In this document: in pieces, positions 11,108 to 33,772 of the stretch | Position numbering within the stretch: position 1 is the stretch's first letter | How the letters are laid out: the number at the start of each line of letters is the position of its first letter | NCBI GenBank assembly: GCA_944358815.1 | Contig: CALVRX010000035.1 | Coordinates: forward strand, 1-34,158 | Direction: 5' to 3' | DNA from: an uncultured Bacilli bacterium | Lineage (GTDB): Bacteria; Bacillota_I; Bacilli_A; RF39; UBA660 | DNA: 34,158 bases | Translations under genes and position numbers: made by a program | Notes under the pieces: model-generated | What the model saw: only the letters and a program-made list of their open reading frames with translations | Database searches by the model: none | What the model was told of the DNA's origin: nothing

Positions 11108-12019
11108 ATGAAAAAGCTCATTATCGTCACTCTATTAGTTATTATAATACCTTTTTTATTTGTCAAAATTTTTGTTCAAACTGACACAATAAAATTTAAA
11201 TATGTCACTAATAACACTATTAGAGTTAAAGATGAAAAAACAAATAAAATAATCAAACTCCCATTTGAAGAATATATCAAAGGAGTAGTTGCTGGTGAAA
11301 TGCCAGCTGACTTCGAAATAGAAGCCCTCAAAGCCCAAGCTGTTGCTTCTAGAAGCTATGCACTGTACCAAATGACTGCAACAAAAAACAAAGAATATGA
11401 TGTATTAAATACTACAGCAAACCAAGTATATTTAACCGATGAACAATTAAAACAAAATTGGAAAAACGATTATAATCAAAAAATAAATAAAATCAAAAAA
11501 GCCGTTGCTGAAACTAGTGGTGAATATTTAACCTATAAAGGAATGATAGTAAACGCTATGTTTTTCTCCACTAGTACTGGTAAAACTGAAAATAGTGAAG
11601 AAGTTTTTGTCTCTGCTCTTCCCTATTTAAGAAGCGTCGATAGTAAATGGGATGAACAATCACCAGCTTATACAGACACCTATACCTTTACTTTAAAAGA
11701 CTTCTACACAAAATTAAATATTCCTTATAATGATAAATTAACCATTGAAGTAACCCAAAAAACCTCAACTGGTCGAATAAAAAAATTAAAAATAAATAAT
11801 GTTGAATTAAATGGTAGAGATGTCGCCACTAAACTATCTCTTCGTTCTAATTATTTTGAAATAATTCAAAATAAAGACAAAGTGACAATCAATACTAAAG
11901 GATTTGGACACGGTGTCGGTATGAGCCAATATGGCGCCAATGGAATGGCAAAAGAAGGCTATAAATATAACCAAATTTTAAAACATTATTACCAAAATAC
12001 TGAAATAAAAAAAATTTAG
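11108..12019 (+). CDS. spoIID: Stage II sporulation protein D (lytic transglycosylase)
   Basis: 303 residues. A signal anchor (about 3-22) precedes the SpoIID/LytB domain. VVAGEMPADFEIEALKAQAV contains the catalytic Glu (E64 here; E88 in Bacillus). AVASRSYALYQ and the C-terminal FGHGVGMSQYGANGMA are hallmark motifs. The enzyme cleaves glycan strands without hydrolysis and, with SpoIIM and SpoIIP, drives membrane migration during engulfment. SpoIIM and SpoIIP are not in the window. GAAAGGAC precedes the ATG, 15 bases after the ywzB-like gene. LytB-like non-sporulation homologues exist, but the adjacent spoIIQ-like gene and mbl match the Bacillus order. Confidence 0.92.
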   Translation: MKKLIIVTLLVIIIPFLFVKIFVQTDTIKFKYVTNNTIRVKDEKTNKIIKLPFEEYIKGVVAGEMPADFEIEALKAQAVASRSYALYQMTATKNKEYDVLNTTANQVYLTDEQLKQNWKNDYNQKINKIKKAVAETSGEYLTYKGMIVNAMFFSTSTGKTENSEEVFVSALPYLRSVDSKWDEQSPAYTDTYTFTLKDFYTKLNIPYNDKLTIEVTQKTSTGRIKKLKINNVELNGRDVATKLSLRSNYFEIIQNKDKVTINTKGFGHGVGMSQYGANGMAKEGYKYNQILKHYYQNTEIKKI

Positions 12020-12855: not shown

Positions 12856-13863
12856 ATGTTTTCAAAAGATATTGGAATAGACTTAGGAACAGCTAATGTT
12901 CTTATTTATATTAAAGGACAAGGAATAGTTTTAAATGAACCAAGTGTTGTTGCCATTGATGAAGAAACTAAAAGACCAGTAGCTGTTGGAACTGCCGCTA
13001 AAGAAATGCTTGGTAGAACACCAGGACAAGTAAAAGCTATTAGACCAATGAAAGATGGAGTTATCGCCGATTTTGAAATCACTGAAATCATGTTAAATAA
13101 CTTCATCAGAAAAGTCAATGGAAAAAGTTTCTTTGGAAGACCAAGAATCTTAATTTGCTGTCCTTCCAACATCACACAAGTAGAAAAAAACGCCATCAGA
13201 GAAGCCGCTGAAAAAACAGGTGCTAGGAAAGTTTACCTAGAAGAAGAACCAAAAGTAGCTGCTGTTGGTGCCGGTATGGATATATCTAAACCAAGTGGAA
13301 ATATGGTTATCGATATTGGTGGTGGTACAACAGATGTTGCGGTTTTATCATTAGGTGGTATTGTTACCTCATCATCCATTAAAATTGCCGGTAATGTTTT
13401 TGATAATGATATAATTAAATACATTAGAGAAAAATATAAACTTCTTGTTGGAGACCAAACAGCTGAAGAAATTAAATTCCAAATTGGAACCGTTTTTCCT
13501 GGATCAAAAAGTGAAAAAATGGAAGTTCGTGGTCGTGATTTAGTCACTGGTCTACCTCATACAATTACTTTAACCTCTGAAGAAGTAGAAGAAGCTCTAA
13601 GAGAAAGTGCCTATGTTATTGTCAACACGGCTAAATCTGTTTTAGAACAAACTCCTCCAGAATTATCTGCTGATATTATTGATAAAGGTATTGTCATAAC
13701 TGGTGGAGGTGCTTTACTTGATGGTATTGATAAACTACTTAGTCATGAACTAAAAGTACCTGTTTTTATTGCTGAAAGTCCATTAACATGCGTTGTTGAA
13801 GGAACAGGTGTTTTATTAGAAAATATTCCTTTACTAGAAAGTGGTTTAAATAAACGTTATTAG
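12856..13863 (+). CDS. mbl: MreB-family actin Mbl (cell-shape protein)
   Basis: 335 residues. Actin-fold motifs: FSKDIGIDLGTANVLIYIKG (phosphate 1), RPRILICCPSNIT, GNMVIDIGGGTTDVAVLSL (phosphate 2) and GIVITGGGALLDGID (adenosine). The sequence resembles Mbl more than MreB (for example GIVLNEPSVVAID and the context after spoIIQ), but I cannot align to be certain. It polymerises under the membrane and guides elongation peptidoglycan synthesis. In Bacillus, spoIIID lies just before mbl; no such gene is present here. The next gene (aminopeptidase) follows by 29 bases with no terminator. Confidence 0.9.
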   Translation: MFSKDIGIDLGTANVLIYIKGQGIVLNEPSVVAIDEETKRPVAVGTAAKEMLGRTPGQVKAIRPMKDGVIADFEITEIMLNNFIRKVNGKSFFGRPRILICCPSNITQVEKNAIREAAEKTGARKVYLEEEPKVAAVGAGMDISKPSGNMVIDIGGGTTDVAVLSLGGIVTSSSIKIAGNVFDNDIIKYIREKYKLLVGDQTAEEIKFQIGTVFPGSKSEKMEVRGRDLVTGLPHTITLTSEEVEEALRESAYVIVNTAKSVLEQTPPELSADIIDKGIVITGGGALLDGIDKLLSHELKVPVFIAESPLTCVVEGTGVLLENIPLLESGLNKRY

Positions 13864-23169: not shown

Positions 23170-23190
23170 TTGTTTAGAAAGGAGACATTA

Positions 23191-24516
23191 ATGAAAAAAG
23201 GAGTTAAAACATTCTTAGGTGCATGTGCTTTTTGTGCTTGCCTATTCCCATTTACTCATGCCGATGCTAAAACATTAGTAAACAATCAAGAATATAATAG
23301 TTTACCAGAAGCAATTACAGCAACTGGCGCTAAAACAGCTACTTTTAAAGTAACTAGTGATGAAACTGGAAATGCTAAAACTGTCAATATTCCTGCTGGC
23401 GCAAATTATACTATTGATGGAGGTAACTTTACTGTTAATTATAGTTTTTCATTAGATGCCAAATCTAGTGCCAATAGTACACTTTCTATTAAAAATTTAA
23501 TTATGGATGGTAATAACTCATTGGGTATGGCTATTAATTCACAAAATCAAGAAACTAAACCAAATGAATTAACCTTATCAGTAGTTAATTCAACAATTAG
23601 AAATTATAAAAATAAAGGTTTATATTTAACTAATGTTAAAAATTTACTTATTGATAATGTTAAATTTAATGACTTAGCGACTACTACCCAAACTTGGTGT
23701 AGTGGCGATTATGCCCTAGATGTTAATCTAATTGGTGTTCAAAATGCTGAAATTACTATCAAAAATTCTTCTTTTGCTGGAAAATCTGGCGGTAACTCAC
23801 CAATTAAAGTTACTCAAAGAGGTGGCATAGATGATATTAATACTGACATTACATATTATAAACAAGGACATACTAATGCCCCAGCTAGTATTAAATCACT
23901 ATTAGTTGAAAACTGTGATTTTACTAATGTAACTGGAAATAGTAAAGGTGATGTTATTATTGGATCAAGTCCAAATGCTGATGGAACAGCTCGAACTAGT
24001 GCTACCAACTATGCTTATAAAGTAGTAGCTAAACCAGGAACTACTACTGAAGTATATACTAGAAGTACTAAAGAAGCAGAAGATAGTGGTACCAATAAAC
24101 CAGTAGTTGTCAAAGATGACGCTCCATTAATGCAAGTAACTAACTATGTTCTAAAATCAGATAATAAAACAATCGACTTAGAATTAAATAAAGAATATAA
24201 ATTAAGTTATTACTTTGGCGATAAAGGTGCCATCGTTGTTGATGCGCCAAAAGTATCTTTTACAACTAGTGATGATAGTATTGTTACTGTCGCTGAAGAC
24301 GGTACAATTACTGCCAAAAAAGCTGGAACAGCTACTGTAACAGCCACTTACGATGGTGGAAGCTATGAATGGACTATTAATGTCACTAATCCTGTTACTG
24401 ATAATGTAGAAAACCCTAAAACTGCAGATTCTATCTTATTAACTGTAGCAACATTATTAGTTAGTGGATTAGCTGTCATAACTGCAACTTTAAAAATTAA
24501 ACGTAAAAGTTTATAA
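23191..24516 (+). CDS. Sortase-anchored surface protein with beta-helix and Big2 domain
   Basis: 441 residues. A signal peptide (MKKGVKTFLGACAF..., cleavage about 26 after ADA) is followed by a parallel beta-helix-type region (about 30-270) rich in Asn, Thr and Ser with repeated strand-turn units (LSVVNSTIRNYKNKGLYLTN, LLIDNVKFND, AEITIKNSSF). A bacterial Ig-like group 2 domain follows (about 345-398; SDDSIVTVAEDGTITAKKAG). The sorting signal is NPKTAD at about 408, a hydrophobic helix and KIKRKSL. Its N-terminal module is related in pattern to the protein at 15978, and the sorting motif is the same, so both likely use one sortase. AAAGGAGA precedes the ATG. An adhesion or polysaccharide-contact role is inferred. 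Confidence 0.85.
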   Translation: MKKGVKTFLGACAFCACLFPFTHADAKTLVNNQEYNSLPEAITATGAKTATFKVTSDETGNAKTVNIPAGANYTIDGGNFTVNYSFSLDAKSSANSTLSIKNLIMDGNNSLGMAINSQNQETKPNELTLSVVNSTIRNYKNKGLYLTNVKNLLIDNVKFNDLATTTQTWCSGDYALDVNLIGVQNAEITIKNSSFAGKSGGNSPIKVTQRGGIDDINTDITYYKQGHTNAPASIKSLLVENCDFTNVTGNSKGDVIIGSSPNADGTARTSATNYAYKVVAKPGTTTEVYTRSTKEAEDSGTNKPVVVKDDAPLMQVTNYVLKSDNKTIDLELNKEYKLSYYFGDKGAIVVDAPKVSFTTSDDSIVTVAEDGTITAKKAGTATVTATYDGGSYEWTINVTNPVTDNVENPKTADSILLTVATLLVSGLAVITATLKIKRKSL

Positions 24517-24521
24517 TTAAT

Positions 24522-24547
24522 AAATCTCGCAAATAAAGCGAGATTTT
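24522..24547. terminator. Shared bidirectional terminator
   Basis: AAATCTCGC (24522-24530) pairs with GCGAGATTT (24538-24546) over seven bases, lying between convergent genes and overlapping the lipoprotein stop. T-rich on the plus side. Confidence 0.75.
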
Positions 24548-25220
24548 ATCTTGTTGAAAAAGTAGTATCAAACTTTATAATATCTTTGTCCTTGTTATAC
24601 ATTGGAATAATTGAAACTACATAACCATATTGATTTTCAAAAGAAATTCGAATATCAGGTGTTTCATAATTAATACTTTTACGAATAATTATTTTACTTT
24701 CATTAAAACTATCCTTGTCGTAAACTAAATTCACATCCACATACTTGTCATCTACTTGCTCAATCTCATTAATTTTAAAATTTCTTACCTTTTCACCAAA
24801 ATTTATAACAATATAATTAGAAGTTTTATCCAGTAAAATAGTCTCATCATCACTATTTGACTCGTAATTTTTCATATAATCAATAGTATAAAAGCCCATA
24901 TCTGTATACTTTGCAACAAGTTTTTGTAAATATTTGTTTAACTTGTCATTATAAGCTACTTTATTTCCGTATTTAATCTCATCATCACTTAAAGAAAAAT
25001 AATAAATATCATCAGTCGTTTTCACAGTTAATTTGTTGGAAAAATCTCTTGTATCATTTTTGTCATAAGTTAAATTAATTAAATCTTTAACACTTTCAAA
25101 ATCATTATTATCTATAAAAATATTATTATATTTCATTTCCGTTATCTTACCTTGAATATTTAAAGTTTGCGAGCAACCACAAATTAGCAAAATACACAGT
25201 AAAACAAATATCTTTCGCAT
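24546..25220 (-). CDS. Lipoprotein of unknown function
   Basis: 224 residues. A short signal peptide (MRKIFVLLCILLICGC) has a lipobox ending I-C-G-C with Cys 16 as the lipidated residue, so it should be anchored on the outer face of the membrane. The mature part alternates charged and hydrophobic strands and many Asp/Asn/Lys residues, with no motif I recognise. The start at 25220 is preferred to an in-frame start nine bases upstream, since AGGTGA is then five bases away. Transcribed leftwards; convergent with the surface-protein gene. Its upstream neighbour on the same strand is the CotJC gene with an intervening terminator. Confidence 0.8.
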   Translation of the reverse strand: MRKIFVLLCILLICGCSQTLNIQGKITEMKYNNIFIDNNDFESVKDLINLTYDKNDTRDFSNKLTVKTTDDIYYFSLSDDEIKYGNKVAYNDKLNKYLQKLVAKYTDMGFYTIDYMKNYESNSDDETILLDKTSNYIVINFGEKVRNFKINEIEQVDDKYVDVNLVYDKDSFNESKIIIRKSINYETPDIRISFENQYGYVVSIIPMYNKDKDIIKFDTTFSTR

Positions 25221-25252
25221 AAAAATCACCTATCATTATTATGCTTTTTTTA

Positions 25253-25283
25253 ACCAAAAAAATACTTGCAAAAAACAAGTATT
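25253..25283 (-). terminator. Terminator after cotJC
   Basis: Reading leftwards, AATACTTG (25283-25276) pairs with CAAGTATT (25268-25261) over seven bases, followed by a T-run. It overlaps the cotJC stop. Confidence 0.8.
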
Positions 25284-25839
25284 ATTTTTTCATTTTTAAA
25301 TAATAATCACGTAATTCTTTAAAGCGTTGATAGTGGACAATCTCTCTTTCTCTTAAAAATGAAAGAGGTCCTAAAATATCTGGATCATCTGTCAAATCCA
25401 TTAAATGTTCATAAGTTGCTCTAGCTCTCTGCTCAGCTCCCATATCACTTTCAATATCTGCAATATAATCGCCTGCTACTTTAATATAAGTCATATTAAA
25501 TGGATTACCAAATGAATCTGATGGAAATAAATCCATTCCAAATTGTGCATACTGTCCATCAAGACCAGCCGCTTTTAATTCTTCCTTAGTTGCCCCATTC
25601 ATAAGCTGATAAAGCATTGCAGATATAATTTCTACATGCGCCAGCTCCTCCGTACCAATATCCGTAAGCAACGCTTTTCCCCTATCATCCGGCATAATAT
25701 ATCTTTGGTCTAAATATTGCCATGCAGCTGCGAGCTCTCCAGCTGGACCGCCATACTGTGTCAAAATACATTTTGCCATCTTTAAATTTCTTTTTTTAAT
25801 ATTTACTGGATATTGTAATTTTTTTTCATATTTCCACAT
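25282..25839 (-). CDS. cotJC: Spore coat protein CotJC (manganese-catalase family)
   Basis: 185 residues. The family match is clear: MWKYEKKLQYPVNIKKRN at the start, ILTQYGGPAGELAAAWQYLD, GTEELAHVEIISAMLYQLMN and SFLREREIVHYQRFKE. The Glu and His residues in EELAHVEI and EREIVHYQRF are the expected di-manganese ligands. CotJC is an inner spore-coat protein and a presumed Mn catalase. AGGAGG lies upstream on the minus strand. It is 9 bases downstream of the CotJA-CotJB gene, forming the cotJ operon, normally under mother-cell sigma control. Confidence 0.95.
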   Translation of the reverse strand: MWKYEKKLQYPVNIKKRNLKMAKCILTQYGGPAGELAAAWQYLDQRYIMPDDRGKALLTDIGTEELAHVEIISAMLYQLMNGATKEELKAAGLDGQYAQFGMDLFPSDSFGNPFNMTYIKVAGDYIADIESDMGAEQRARATYEHLMDLTDDPDILGPLSFLREREIVHYQRFKELRDYYLKMKK

Positions 25840-25848
25840 ATTAACCTC

Positions 25849-26358
25849 CTATTTATTTTCCCAAGGCCAAGGTGATTTATTCCAAGTCCATGGATACCCT
25901 TCATTTGAATTTACTAAAATAGGTCCATACTTACTTTCATAATCATTTTTAGCTGTCCAAGCATCCGCACTAAACTGATTATATAAATCAATCATCGCTC
26001 TATCATTAGGATGCGTATCTAAATATAAATTAATATCATGTGCCGCAAAAGCATAAGCATCAAGTTTTGTTAAAAGTTCTGCTTGCTCATTCATTCCTTT
26101 AACATCGTATGGTCTAGAAAGTTTATATTTGTTGTATAAATTAGGAAACATATTACCCCTAATAAATCCATTATAAACATCGTATAATTCATTCGGACTA
26201 GTCTTTCCATCAAAACCACATTTGTTGAAATTCATATTGTCCCCTGCTTGCTTACTTAACTTTTTACTAAGTTCCGCATCTTGATCCATCTTTGGCATTG
26301 CTTCAGGATATGCCATCATAAACTCGTTAGGAAACATTCCGTTCATATAGTTATTCAT
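25849..26358 (-). CDS. CotJA-CotJB-like fused spore coat protein
   Basis: 169 residues. An N-terminal, Met/Asn-rich stretch (about 1-53) contains no known domain. Residues about 55-85 (NELYDVYNGFIRGNMFPNLY) resemble CotJA, whose hallmark is a RGTLFPELxxPY segment. Residues about 90-169 are CotJB-like: FAAHDINLYLDTHPNDRAM, YESKYGPI and the C-terminal WTWNKSPWPWE. In Bacillus these are separate genes cotJA and cotJB; here one reading frame covers both. GAAAGGAG precedes the ATG. It heads the cotJ operon. The CotJB assignment is strong, the CotJA half moderate. Confidence 0.85.
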   Translation of the reverse strand: MNNYMNGMFPNEFMMAYPEAMPKMDQDAELSKKLSKQAGDNMNFNKCGFDGKTSPNELYDVYNGFIRGNMFPNLYNKYKLSRPYDVKGMNEQAELLTKLDAYAFAAHDINLYLDTHPNDRAMIDLYNQFSADAWTAKNDYESKYGPILVNSNEGYPWTWNKSPWPWENK

Positions 26359-26418
26359 CTACTTAACTCCTTTCGAAATATTCTATGAAATAAAATATCT
26401 AAAGTATAGGCAAAAAAC

Positions 26419-31243: not shown

Positions 31244-32539
31244 ATGATTGAAACAGAAGAAAAAACAAAAAGAGTTTTTACAGATAAAAAGGACTTTCCT
31301 TTATCTTTAATTAAAGAAATGTTTGATGATGGAGATATAATTCCACAACCCGATTATCAAAGGGATTATGTAATGGATAATAAAACTGCCTCAAGATTAA
31401 TTGAATCTGTGCTTTTAAATATTCCTATTCCAACAGTTTATTTATGTGAAGAAATTGATGGACGTTTTAGTATTATTGACGGTCAGCAAAGAATGACCTC
31501 ATTCGTAAGATATTTGAAAAATGATTTTGCTTTAAAAGGACTTGAAGAACTACCAGAAATAAATGGCAAAAAATTTAACGAATTAGATAAATCATTACAA
31601 AGAACATTAAAATCTTGCACATTGAATTCTATAATTTTAACTAAAGAGTCACAGGAACTAAAATATGAAATATTTGCTAGACTTAATCAAGGTTCGATTA
31701 GATTAAAACCGCAAGAATTGCGTAATTGTATTTATAGAGGAACATTTAATAATATGCTTGAAGACATAGCAAAAAGTAATAAACATCTATGTGAATTATT
31801 TTTAGAAAAAAATAAAAGAAAAAATTATCAAGAATATATATTAAGATTTTTTGCCTTAAGAAATTTTACTAATTATAGTTCATCTATGAAAAAAACAATG
31901 AATAATTACATGATAAAACATCAAAATGCGGATAATAATGAAATAAAAGAATTAAAAACATTATTTAATGGAACTATAGATATAATTAAACAGGTTTTTG
32001 GTTCAACTGCTTTTTGCGCATATGATAGACAAAAATCTCAATTTATGAATAAATTTAGTGGCTCTGTTTATGATTCAATAGCTATTGCTTGTTCAATGTT
32101 CAATCATCACGATTTAATGACTCACGCAGATGAGATTAGAAAACAAGTTAATGACATGAAAATGAATAATCCAACATATCAAGATTATACATATGCAGCC
32201 ACTGGCTCTAAAAATAGAGTTATTGGGAGAATTATGATGATATATAATTTAATAAAAAATATAATTGGTAATGAAAATAACCATCCAAGAACATATTCAA
32301 AAAGTACTAAAGAAGAACTATGGCATAATGGATATATTTGTCCATACTGTAAACAAGAAATATTAAGTATTGAAGATGCAGAAGTAGATCATATTATTCC
32401 TTATTCAAAAGGCGGTCAAACAATAATGGAAAACGCACAATTATTACATAGACATTGTAATAGAGAAAAAAATAATGCTGATTTTGAATCTACAGATATT
32501 AATGAAATTGAATTGATAAACAAAGATGAAAATATCTAA
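31244..32539 (+). CDS. DUF262 protein with C-terminal HNH nuclease domain
   Basis: 431 residues. The N-terminal DUF262 (ParB/Srx-like) domain has PQPDYQRDYVMDNKTASRLI, PIPTVYLCE and FSIIDGQQRMTSF, the DGQQR motif being its nucleotide-binding hallmark. A helical middle follows. The C-terminal HNH nuclease fold (about 360-415) has CPYCKQEI, AEVDHIIPYSKGG, and ENAQLLHRHCNREKNN. DUF262-nuclease fusions (GmrS/GmrD-related) are type IV restriction or anti-phage proteins; here HNH replaces the more usual DUF1524. GGAGG overlaps the end of the fic frame. A defence role is inferred from context with the methylases. It appears intact. Confidence 0.88.
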   Translation: MIETEEKTKRVFTDKKDFPLSLIKEMFDDGDIIPQPDYQRDYVMDNKTASRLIESVLLNIPIPTVYLCEEIDGRFSIIDGQQRMTSFVRYLKNDFALKGLEELPEINGKKFNELDKSLQRTLKSCTLNSIILTKESQELKYEIFARLNQGSIRLKPQELRNCIYRGTFNNMLEDIAKSNKHLCELFLEKNKRKNYQEYILRFFALRNFTNYSSSMKKTMNNYMIKHQNADNNEIKELKTLFNGTIDIIKQVFGSTAFCAYDRQKSQFMNKFSGSVYDSIAIACSMFNHHDLMTHADEIRKQVNDMKMNNPTYQDYTYAATGSKNRVIGRIMMIYNLIKNIIGNENNHPRTYSKSTKEELWHNGYICPYCKQEILSIEDAEVDHIIPYSKGGQTIMENAQLLHRHCNREKNNADFESTDINEIELINKDENI

Positions 32540-32863: not shown

Positions 32864-32905
32864 GAAAAAGACAGTTATTTTAATGTGTTAAAGGATGTAG
32901 ATAGT

Positions 32906-33772
32906 ATGATAAAAGGAAAACCATTTGTAAAATGGGCTGGAGGCAAAAGACAAATTATCGATAAACTAAAAAAATGTCTCCCAGAAGATTTTAATACATA
33001 TTATGAACCGTTTATTGGCGGCGGAGCTTTGTTATTTGAATTATCTCCTCAAAAAGCCGTAATAAATGACAGTAATGAAGAACTTATGAATGTATATAAA
33101 GTTTTATGTAATGAAGAAAAATTCAAAAAAATGTGTCATACTTTAAATCATTATGAGACTTCTCATTCGGAAGAATTTTATTATGAAATAAGAAATAAGG
33201 ATAGAAATAAAAAATCATTTAATAGATTAGCTGACTATACAAGAGCTGCTAGAACAATCTATTTAAACAAAGCTTGTTTTAATGGCTTATATCGCGTTAA
33301 TAGTAAAAATGAATTTAATGTTCCGTTTGGTAAAAAGAAAAAAGTAAACACTTATGAAGGAAATAATCTAATTACCGTGAGTAATTATTTAACTATGAAT
33401 GATATAAAAATACTTTGTTGTGACTTTGAAGAAGCTGTTAAAGATGCTAAAAAAGGAGACTTTATTTACTTTGACCCACCTTATGACTCAGACACGTCAA
33501 CCTTTAATAGCTATACTGAAACAGGCTTTGATAAAGATGAGCAAAGAAGACTTGCCAAAGTATTTAAAGAGTTAGATAAAAGAGGCTGTTATGTCATGCT
33601 TTCTAATCATAATACAAAACTAATTAATGAACTCTATAAAGACTATAATATTCATCATATTGAAGCTAAAAGAAATATAAATTCTAATGGTAAAAAAAGA
33701 GGCAAAGTCGAAGAAGTTATAATCACTAATTACGAAAGTGTTTCTGAAAAGCAAGAGGTCTTTGATGAGTAA
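32906..33772 (+). CDS. dpnM: DpnM-like DNA adenine methyltransferase (D12 class, GATC)
   Basis: 288 residues. Alpha-class (D12) N6-adenine methylase motifs: KPFVKWAGGKRQI with the AdoMet loop, YYEPFIGGGALLF, and the catalytic FIYFDPPYDS at about 190. The intervening NKACFNGLYRVNSKNEFNVPFG is the family target-recognition region of Dam/DpnM. It is predicted to methylate adenine in GATC, the usual specificity, though this cannot be proven from sequence. The start at 32906 has AAAGGATG nine bases before; an in-frame GTG at 32885 is less likely. The stop overlaps the next gene by 8 bases, forming an operon with dpnA. Confidence 0.9.
   Translation: MIKGKPFVKWAGGKRQIIDKLKKCLPEDFNTYYEPFIGGGALLFELSPQKAVINDSNEELMNVYKVLCNEEKFKKMCHTLNHYETSHSEEFYYEIRNKDRNKKSFNRLADYTRAARTIYLNKACFNGLYRVNSKNEFNVPFGKKKKVNTYEGNNLITVSNYLTMNDIKILCCDFEEAVKDAKKGDFIYFDPPYDSDTSTFNSYTETGFDKDEQRRLAKVFKELDKRGCYVMLSNHNTKLINELYKDYNIHHIEAKRNINSNGKKRGKVEEVIITNYESVSEKQEVFDE

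Follow-up and report, generated by a model that had tools for sequence, protein, structure and literature searches.

A single gene in the stretch of DNA that we analysed (34,158 nucleotides, hereafter the window) very probably encodes the second half of the spore-coat protein CotJA and a complete CotJB as one chain, which would replace the CotJA–CotJB pair and work with CotJC. The gene lies on the minus strand at positions 25849–26358 and specifies 169 amino acids, from an ATG start to a stop codon included in the interval. Reading the sequence alone had already placed a 169-residue frame there, upstream of cotJC; its coordinates proved right and its strand is the minus strand, the plus-strand reading of the interval being full of stops. 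A putative ribosome-binding site, AAAGGAG, can be read 8 nucleotides before the ATG (26367–26373, minus strand). The order of a cotJ operon (cotJA, cotJB and cotJC on one strand) is kept here, cotJA and cotJB being merged into a single gene: cotJC (25282–25839, minus strand), which encodes a manganese-catalase-like coat protein of 185 amino acids, starts 9 nucleotides past the stop of the fused gene, and its GGAGG overlaps that stop. CotJC scored 174.7 bits against PF05067 and has the metal-site residues expected of a manganese catalase, which places it in the family, and it matches small manganese catalases of solved structure (KatB, 6j42 and 4r42; E ~1e-21). Residues E35, E65, H68, E136, E166 and H169, which we take to be the metal-site ligands, are conserved in 78–79 of 79 loci with a long cotJB frame and in all 24 loci with a separate cotJA. 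Farther along the same strand, a 52-nucleotide gap separates cotJC from a gene for a hypothetical protein of 227 amino acids (24546–25229), which may be co-transcribed with it.

The fused protein begins with an extension (residues 1–55; 26194–26358) of low predicted confidence and without a family match, in which QAGDNMNFN is conserved in many genus mates. It continues with the CotJA-derived segment ELYDVYNGFIRGNMFPNLYNKYKL (residues 56–79; 26122–26193), a linker (residues 80–93; 26080–26121) whose counterpart in relatives keeps the distance from CotJA match to CotJB start near constant, and the CotJB domain, a predicted helical hairpin (residues 94–167; 25858–26079), and it ends in SPWPWENK (all on the minus strand). 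The CotJB half is complete, as had been proposed, scoring 86.7 bits against PF12652 (gathering score 29) over profile positions 2–76 of 76, and is a member of that family. The CotJA-like segment scored 12.5 bits against PF11007 (E 0.13; residues 56–76, profile positions 13–33 of 35), below the gathering score of 25 bits and hence outside the family as Pfam draws it; because it misses this cut-off, which some fused relatives pass, we term it CotJA-derived and not a CotJA protein. A comparison of the fused protein with NCBIfam yielded nothing useful.

A second profile, trained without fused sequences because it was built from separate cotJA genes alone (24 loci, with L067 of genome G045 left out), scored the window segment at 12.8 bits, and the best of 4950 shuffles reached 9.3. 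The match covers columns 19–42 of 46, the second half of CotJA, whose motif (R/K)GTxF..LY.PY is present in the window as IRGNMFPNLYNKY; the first half (LAxAYVPxQ-like) was not recognisable in the window protein, in which the match begins only at column 19. The HMM comparison of both halves proposed in the sequence-only reading thus put CotJB over its cut-off and CotJA under it in Pfam, yet above shuffles with the separate-CotJA profile, and its CotJA assignment stood for the second half of CotJA and not for the first. The CotJA half is not significant from the window alone, and it is the data from relatives that make it so. From 115 loci with a long CotJB frame we took the part of the protein before CotJB, which left 99 N-terminal sequences once redundancy at 85% identity was removed. 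Of these, 89 scored higher than 3.4 bits, the 99th percentile of the 4950 shuffles, and in each of the 89 the CotJA match stops a nearly fixed number of residues short of CotJB; the ten that did not pass this threshold (G187, G256, G294, G039, G164, G170, G225, G328, G364 and G383) include half of family f5, and the frame of G294 is cut by a contig end. In profile–profile comparisons with separate CotJA (hhalign), P was 2.1e-6 for the 21 N-terminal sequences from the genus, 2.2e-9 for the 41 from elsewhere in the family and 8.6e-13 for the 35 from other families.

The host genus is Candidatus Coprosoma, which is placed in order RF39, family CAG-822 (in the accessible part of PMC8035907); RF39 is predicted to form spores (excerpted text of PMC10868615). 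The host group comprises little-known gut bacteria with small genomes, and both SpoIVA and Spo0A, sporulation genes expected alongside a coat protein, were found in the window's own genome, and a third such gene, for SpoIID, lies in the window. No separate cotJA was found in that genome, which is 63% complete, so that one could be absent from the assembly, though none was found in relatives either, across the 36 genus genomes searched. The sole CotJA match in these 36 genomes falls inside a second fused frame of G016. The fused protein is present in 33 of the 36, as a single frame in 32; in G008 its parts are split between contigs. The fusion was to be abandoned had the N-terminal half failed to match CotJA while a separate cotJA turned up elsewhere, and neither was the case. 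The second fused copy of G016 (L068, on contig 16), SLYNPEEAIIRGNLFKDLYKDYKNY, is intermediate between true CotJA and the window form; it may be contamination, because the bin has 5% contamination and two Spo0A matches and, by phylogeny, the copy falls with a different genus.

Across 395 genomes of the class, CotJB matched in 118 and CotJA in 37 (E 0.001), over the cut-off in 32, and counts of CotJA at the Pfam cut-off therefore miss cases. We inspected 108 of the 118 CotJB genomes (all except G177, G254, G275, G289, G303, G317, G323, G358, G395 and G424) and found a long single frame in 83 and a separate cotJA in 25. The fusion is thus widespread among relatives; it is not peculiar to this genome and is the commoner architecture in the CotJB genomes that we inspected. 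cotJC follows the long frame in 114 of 115 loci. Some relatives, among them G049 (CotJA score 26.3) and G136 (33.7), have CotJA and CotJB both over the Pfam cut-offs within a single frame, and G049 keeps ATAYIKNQ, a remnant toward the first half of CotJA. In 23 of 24 loci with a separate cotJA, the cotJB frame has its first ATG either overlapping the cotJA stop or at most 23 nucleotides from it, so that joining the two needs little. Some loci of the separate type have features of their own: in L111 and L112 (G416 and G326), the cotJB frame runs to 259 and 286 amino acids from stop to stop, with ~180–208 Asp/Cys-rich residues before CotJB despite a separate cotJA upstream, which would make another unusual coat protein, and in L069, L118 and L120 (G056, G070 and G082), CotJA is the last part of open frames 281–369 residues long and may bear a long N-terminal part.

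The fusion probably happened once, as judged from a tree of CotJB and CotJC with the CotJA columns excluded, in which a single change of state suffices (support 100/97, and in all 200 bootstrap trees). The tree is unrooted and has 93 rows; a quick version of 103 rows was made after dropping the majority of the genus mates and any row whose CotJC was missing, short or weak, and ten further near-duplicates were removed for the final one. The label 'separate' was given to families f8, f11 and f19 and three f13 genomes, all with a CotJA match, and the label 'fused' to every other long frame, including the ten N termini that did not pass the shuffle threshold. A sample of the phylum had CotJB in 66 of 392 genomes, none of them outside the class of the window, which leaves the tree without an outgroup, and a search of plasmids for a named outgroup gave no match; taking the separate state as ancestral rests on Bacillus and Clostridioides difficile (available text of PMC8745062 and PMC3789822). 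It is possible, if unlikely, that fused and separate operons are instead two old lineages that were sorted or exchanged between families, and not the outcome of one fusion followed by descent. Family f13 has both types (separate in G058, G368 and G410; fused in G141, G189, G244, G258, G292 and G354), the tree places the three separate ones together with family f19, which an exchange of operons might explain, and G056 and G082 each carry two operons. However, no inspected genome has both types, the copies of G056 and G082 all being separate, and even under such sorting the fusion would still have arisen once and the nature of the gene would be unchanged.

Under a single fusion followed by descent, the ancestor would have had a touching or overlapping cotJA–cotJB pair of the kind still seen in species with separate genes; the stop of cotJA would have been lost in frame with cotJB, joining the two, and the first half of CotJA would have eroded. 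The product would be one polypeptide in which a CotJA motif of the RGTxF..LY.PY form is followed by a linker of ~15 residues and a complete CotJB. As the sequence-only reading had argued, a fusion would fix the ratio of CotJA to CotJB; a single frame sets it at 1:1. The sporulating mother cell would translate a single message into the fused protein and CotJC, the CotJA segment would pack on the CotJB hairpin, so that the fused chain would amount to a pre-assembled CotJA–CotJB pair, and the chain would be laid into the spore coat with CotJC.

Structure prediction fits such packing. AlphaFold2, run with 99 sequences, gave the full protein a mean pLDDT of 80 and a pTM of 0.69, with the CotJB helical hairpin at 96–98 over most of its length and residues 51–70 at 95. 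With the N-terminal half alone, pTM was 0.26, and pLDDT was 70 for residues 51–60 and 87 for residues 61–70, a drop that fits a CotJA motif packing on CotJB and may partly reflect the shorter chain. The contact between the halves is a predicted one, resting on this modelling. Solved structures included no relative of the fused protein (best E 0.11), and Foldseek found no match in the PDB at E ≤ 0.001; its best matches were bacterioferritins and, lower down, the manganese catalase KatB, with TM ~0.3, which is uninformative for a helical hairpin, as is the best VIA-align Z of 6.1.

Upstream of the gene, the window contains an exact match to a promoter of the sigma-E/sigma-K (mother-cell) type, CTATAC-N16-CATAGAATA (26379–26409, minus strand). 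A pattern of this form could occur in the window by chance, but AC-N15..17-CATANNNTA precedes the start in 31 of 32 genus loci against 0.58 expected from Markov resamples, a comparison that does not amount to a probability since the loci are related and some are identical. In the genus alignment, CYATAC and CATANNATA hardly vary, whereas the 16-base spacer has drifted, which is the pattern that a used promoter would give. Beyond the genus, with the first ATG taken as the start, the full motif occurs at 14 of the family's 42 loci, at 2 of 6 in f13, 1 of 10 in f16 and 0 of 24 others. A promoter for sigma-K only was considered and set aside: judged by consensus letters from the available part of PMC3416734, whose columns we assumed to be sigma-E and sigma-K, the window site fits sigma-E better (fully at −10, at six of eight positions at −35). 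In the genus as a whole, the −10 box always ends in TA, a better match to sigma-K, and we assign the predicted promoter to the mother-cell class only. Matches to TIGR02846 (sigma-K) gave at least two strong sigma-E/K-like factors in 17 of the 18 genus genomes searched, and one in G011, all under the cut-off, so that sigma-E and sigma-K are not told apart. The window's own genome has two exact sites of the same promoter form, that of the fused gene included, and with up to two mismatches it has 138 matches against 107 for the reversed control, a difference on which we claim no regulon. The B. subtilis genes cotJB and cotJC are assigned to the sigma-E class (PMC3416734, in the part available), and the C. 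difficile operons CD2399-cotJB2-cotD and CD0596-cotF-cotCB are sigma-K dependent according to the accessible text of PMC3789822.

It is improbable that the frame has two products, an internal start also giving a separate CotJB: a Shine–Dalgarno-like GAGG does stand before the ATG of RGNM in many genus mates, but GAGG arises simply from the Arg-Gly codons of RGNM, only the first ATG was flagged in the motif list for the window, and a start there would cut the CotJA motif without yielding a clean CotJB. Least credible of all, and already strongly disfavoured, is a CotJB with an unrelated N-terminal extension, cotJA having been lost and the resemblance being due to chance or convergence, a reading that the sub-threshold Pfam score, the ten failing N termini and the missing first half of CotJA favour, but against which stand the 89 passing N termini with their near constant spacing, the profile–profile P values, and relatives that exceed the Pfam CotJA cut-off in the same frame, with forms intermediate between the two.

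The fused CotJA–CotJB gene is a variant of a known coat operon. The products of cotJA-cotJB-cotJC in B. subtilis are inner-coat components (accessible part of PMC8745062), and we infer a function in the coat for the fused protein. The window agrees with the B. subtilis operon in its three protein families and their order, but carries the second half of CotJA and CotJB as one chain, where B. subtilis has three genes. The C. difficile operons likewise have three genes, the last two encoding a CotJB-like protein and a manganese catalase and the first a separate conserved hypothetical protein, as described in the available text of PMC3789822. Moorella thermoacetica has cotJB-cotJC, with CotJA reported to be absent by ortholog search (in the consulted part of PMC8745062), and the CotJA of the window would in the same way count as absent at the Pfam cut-off. 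The fusion itself is apparently undescribed: we found no account of it in the open-licence papers that we searched on the cotJ operon, its structure, interactions or sigma-E/K control. The available portion of PMC10868615 names cotJB and does not contain the terms 'fused' and 'fusion', and the main text of PMC13339974 has none of the three cotJ names.

How the three cotJ products fit each other is little documented in the open-licence literature, and that the fusion is kept across several families and needs one change on the tree suggests, circumstantially, that CotJA and CotJB normally touch. The fusion also shows which part of CotJA has been retained, and provides one chain that could be used for expression and structure solution with CotJC. 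As a tentative generalization, about which we are somewhat more doubtful than confident, CotJA may be a detachable first part of CotJB whose motif completes the CotJB fold in every spore former; the RF39-type fusion would then show that ~24 CotJA residues suffice, and genomes that seem to be without CotJA may hide it within CotJB.

Other parts of the window also drew our attention. A gene for SpoIID (11108–12019) lies near an MreB/Mbl gene (12856–13863) in this reduced genome. A terminator-like hairpin at 24522–24546, readable on both strands, stands between two convergent genes, that of the 227-amino-acid protein on the minus strand and one on the plus strand (23170–24516) for a surface protein that is probably secreted and has a Big_2 domain and an ENPKTAD...KIKRK tail resembling a sortase signal. 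Farther on, a GmrSD-like/HNH nuclease gene (31244–32539) sits beside one for a D12-class adenine methyltransferase (32885–33772), a possible restriction-modification cluster.
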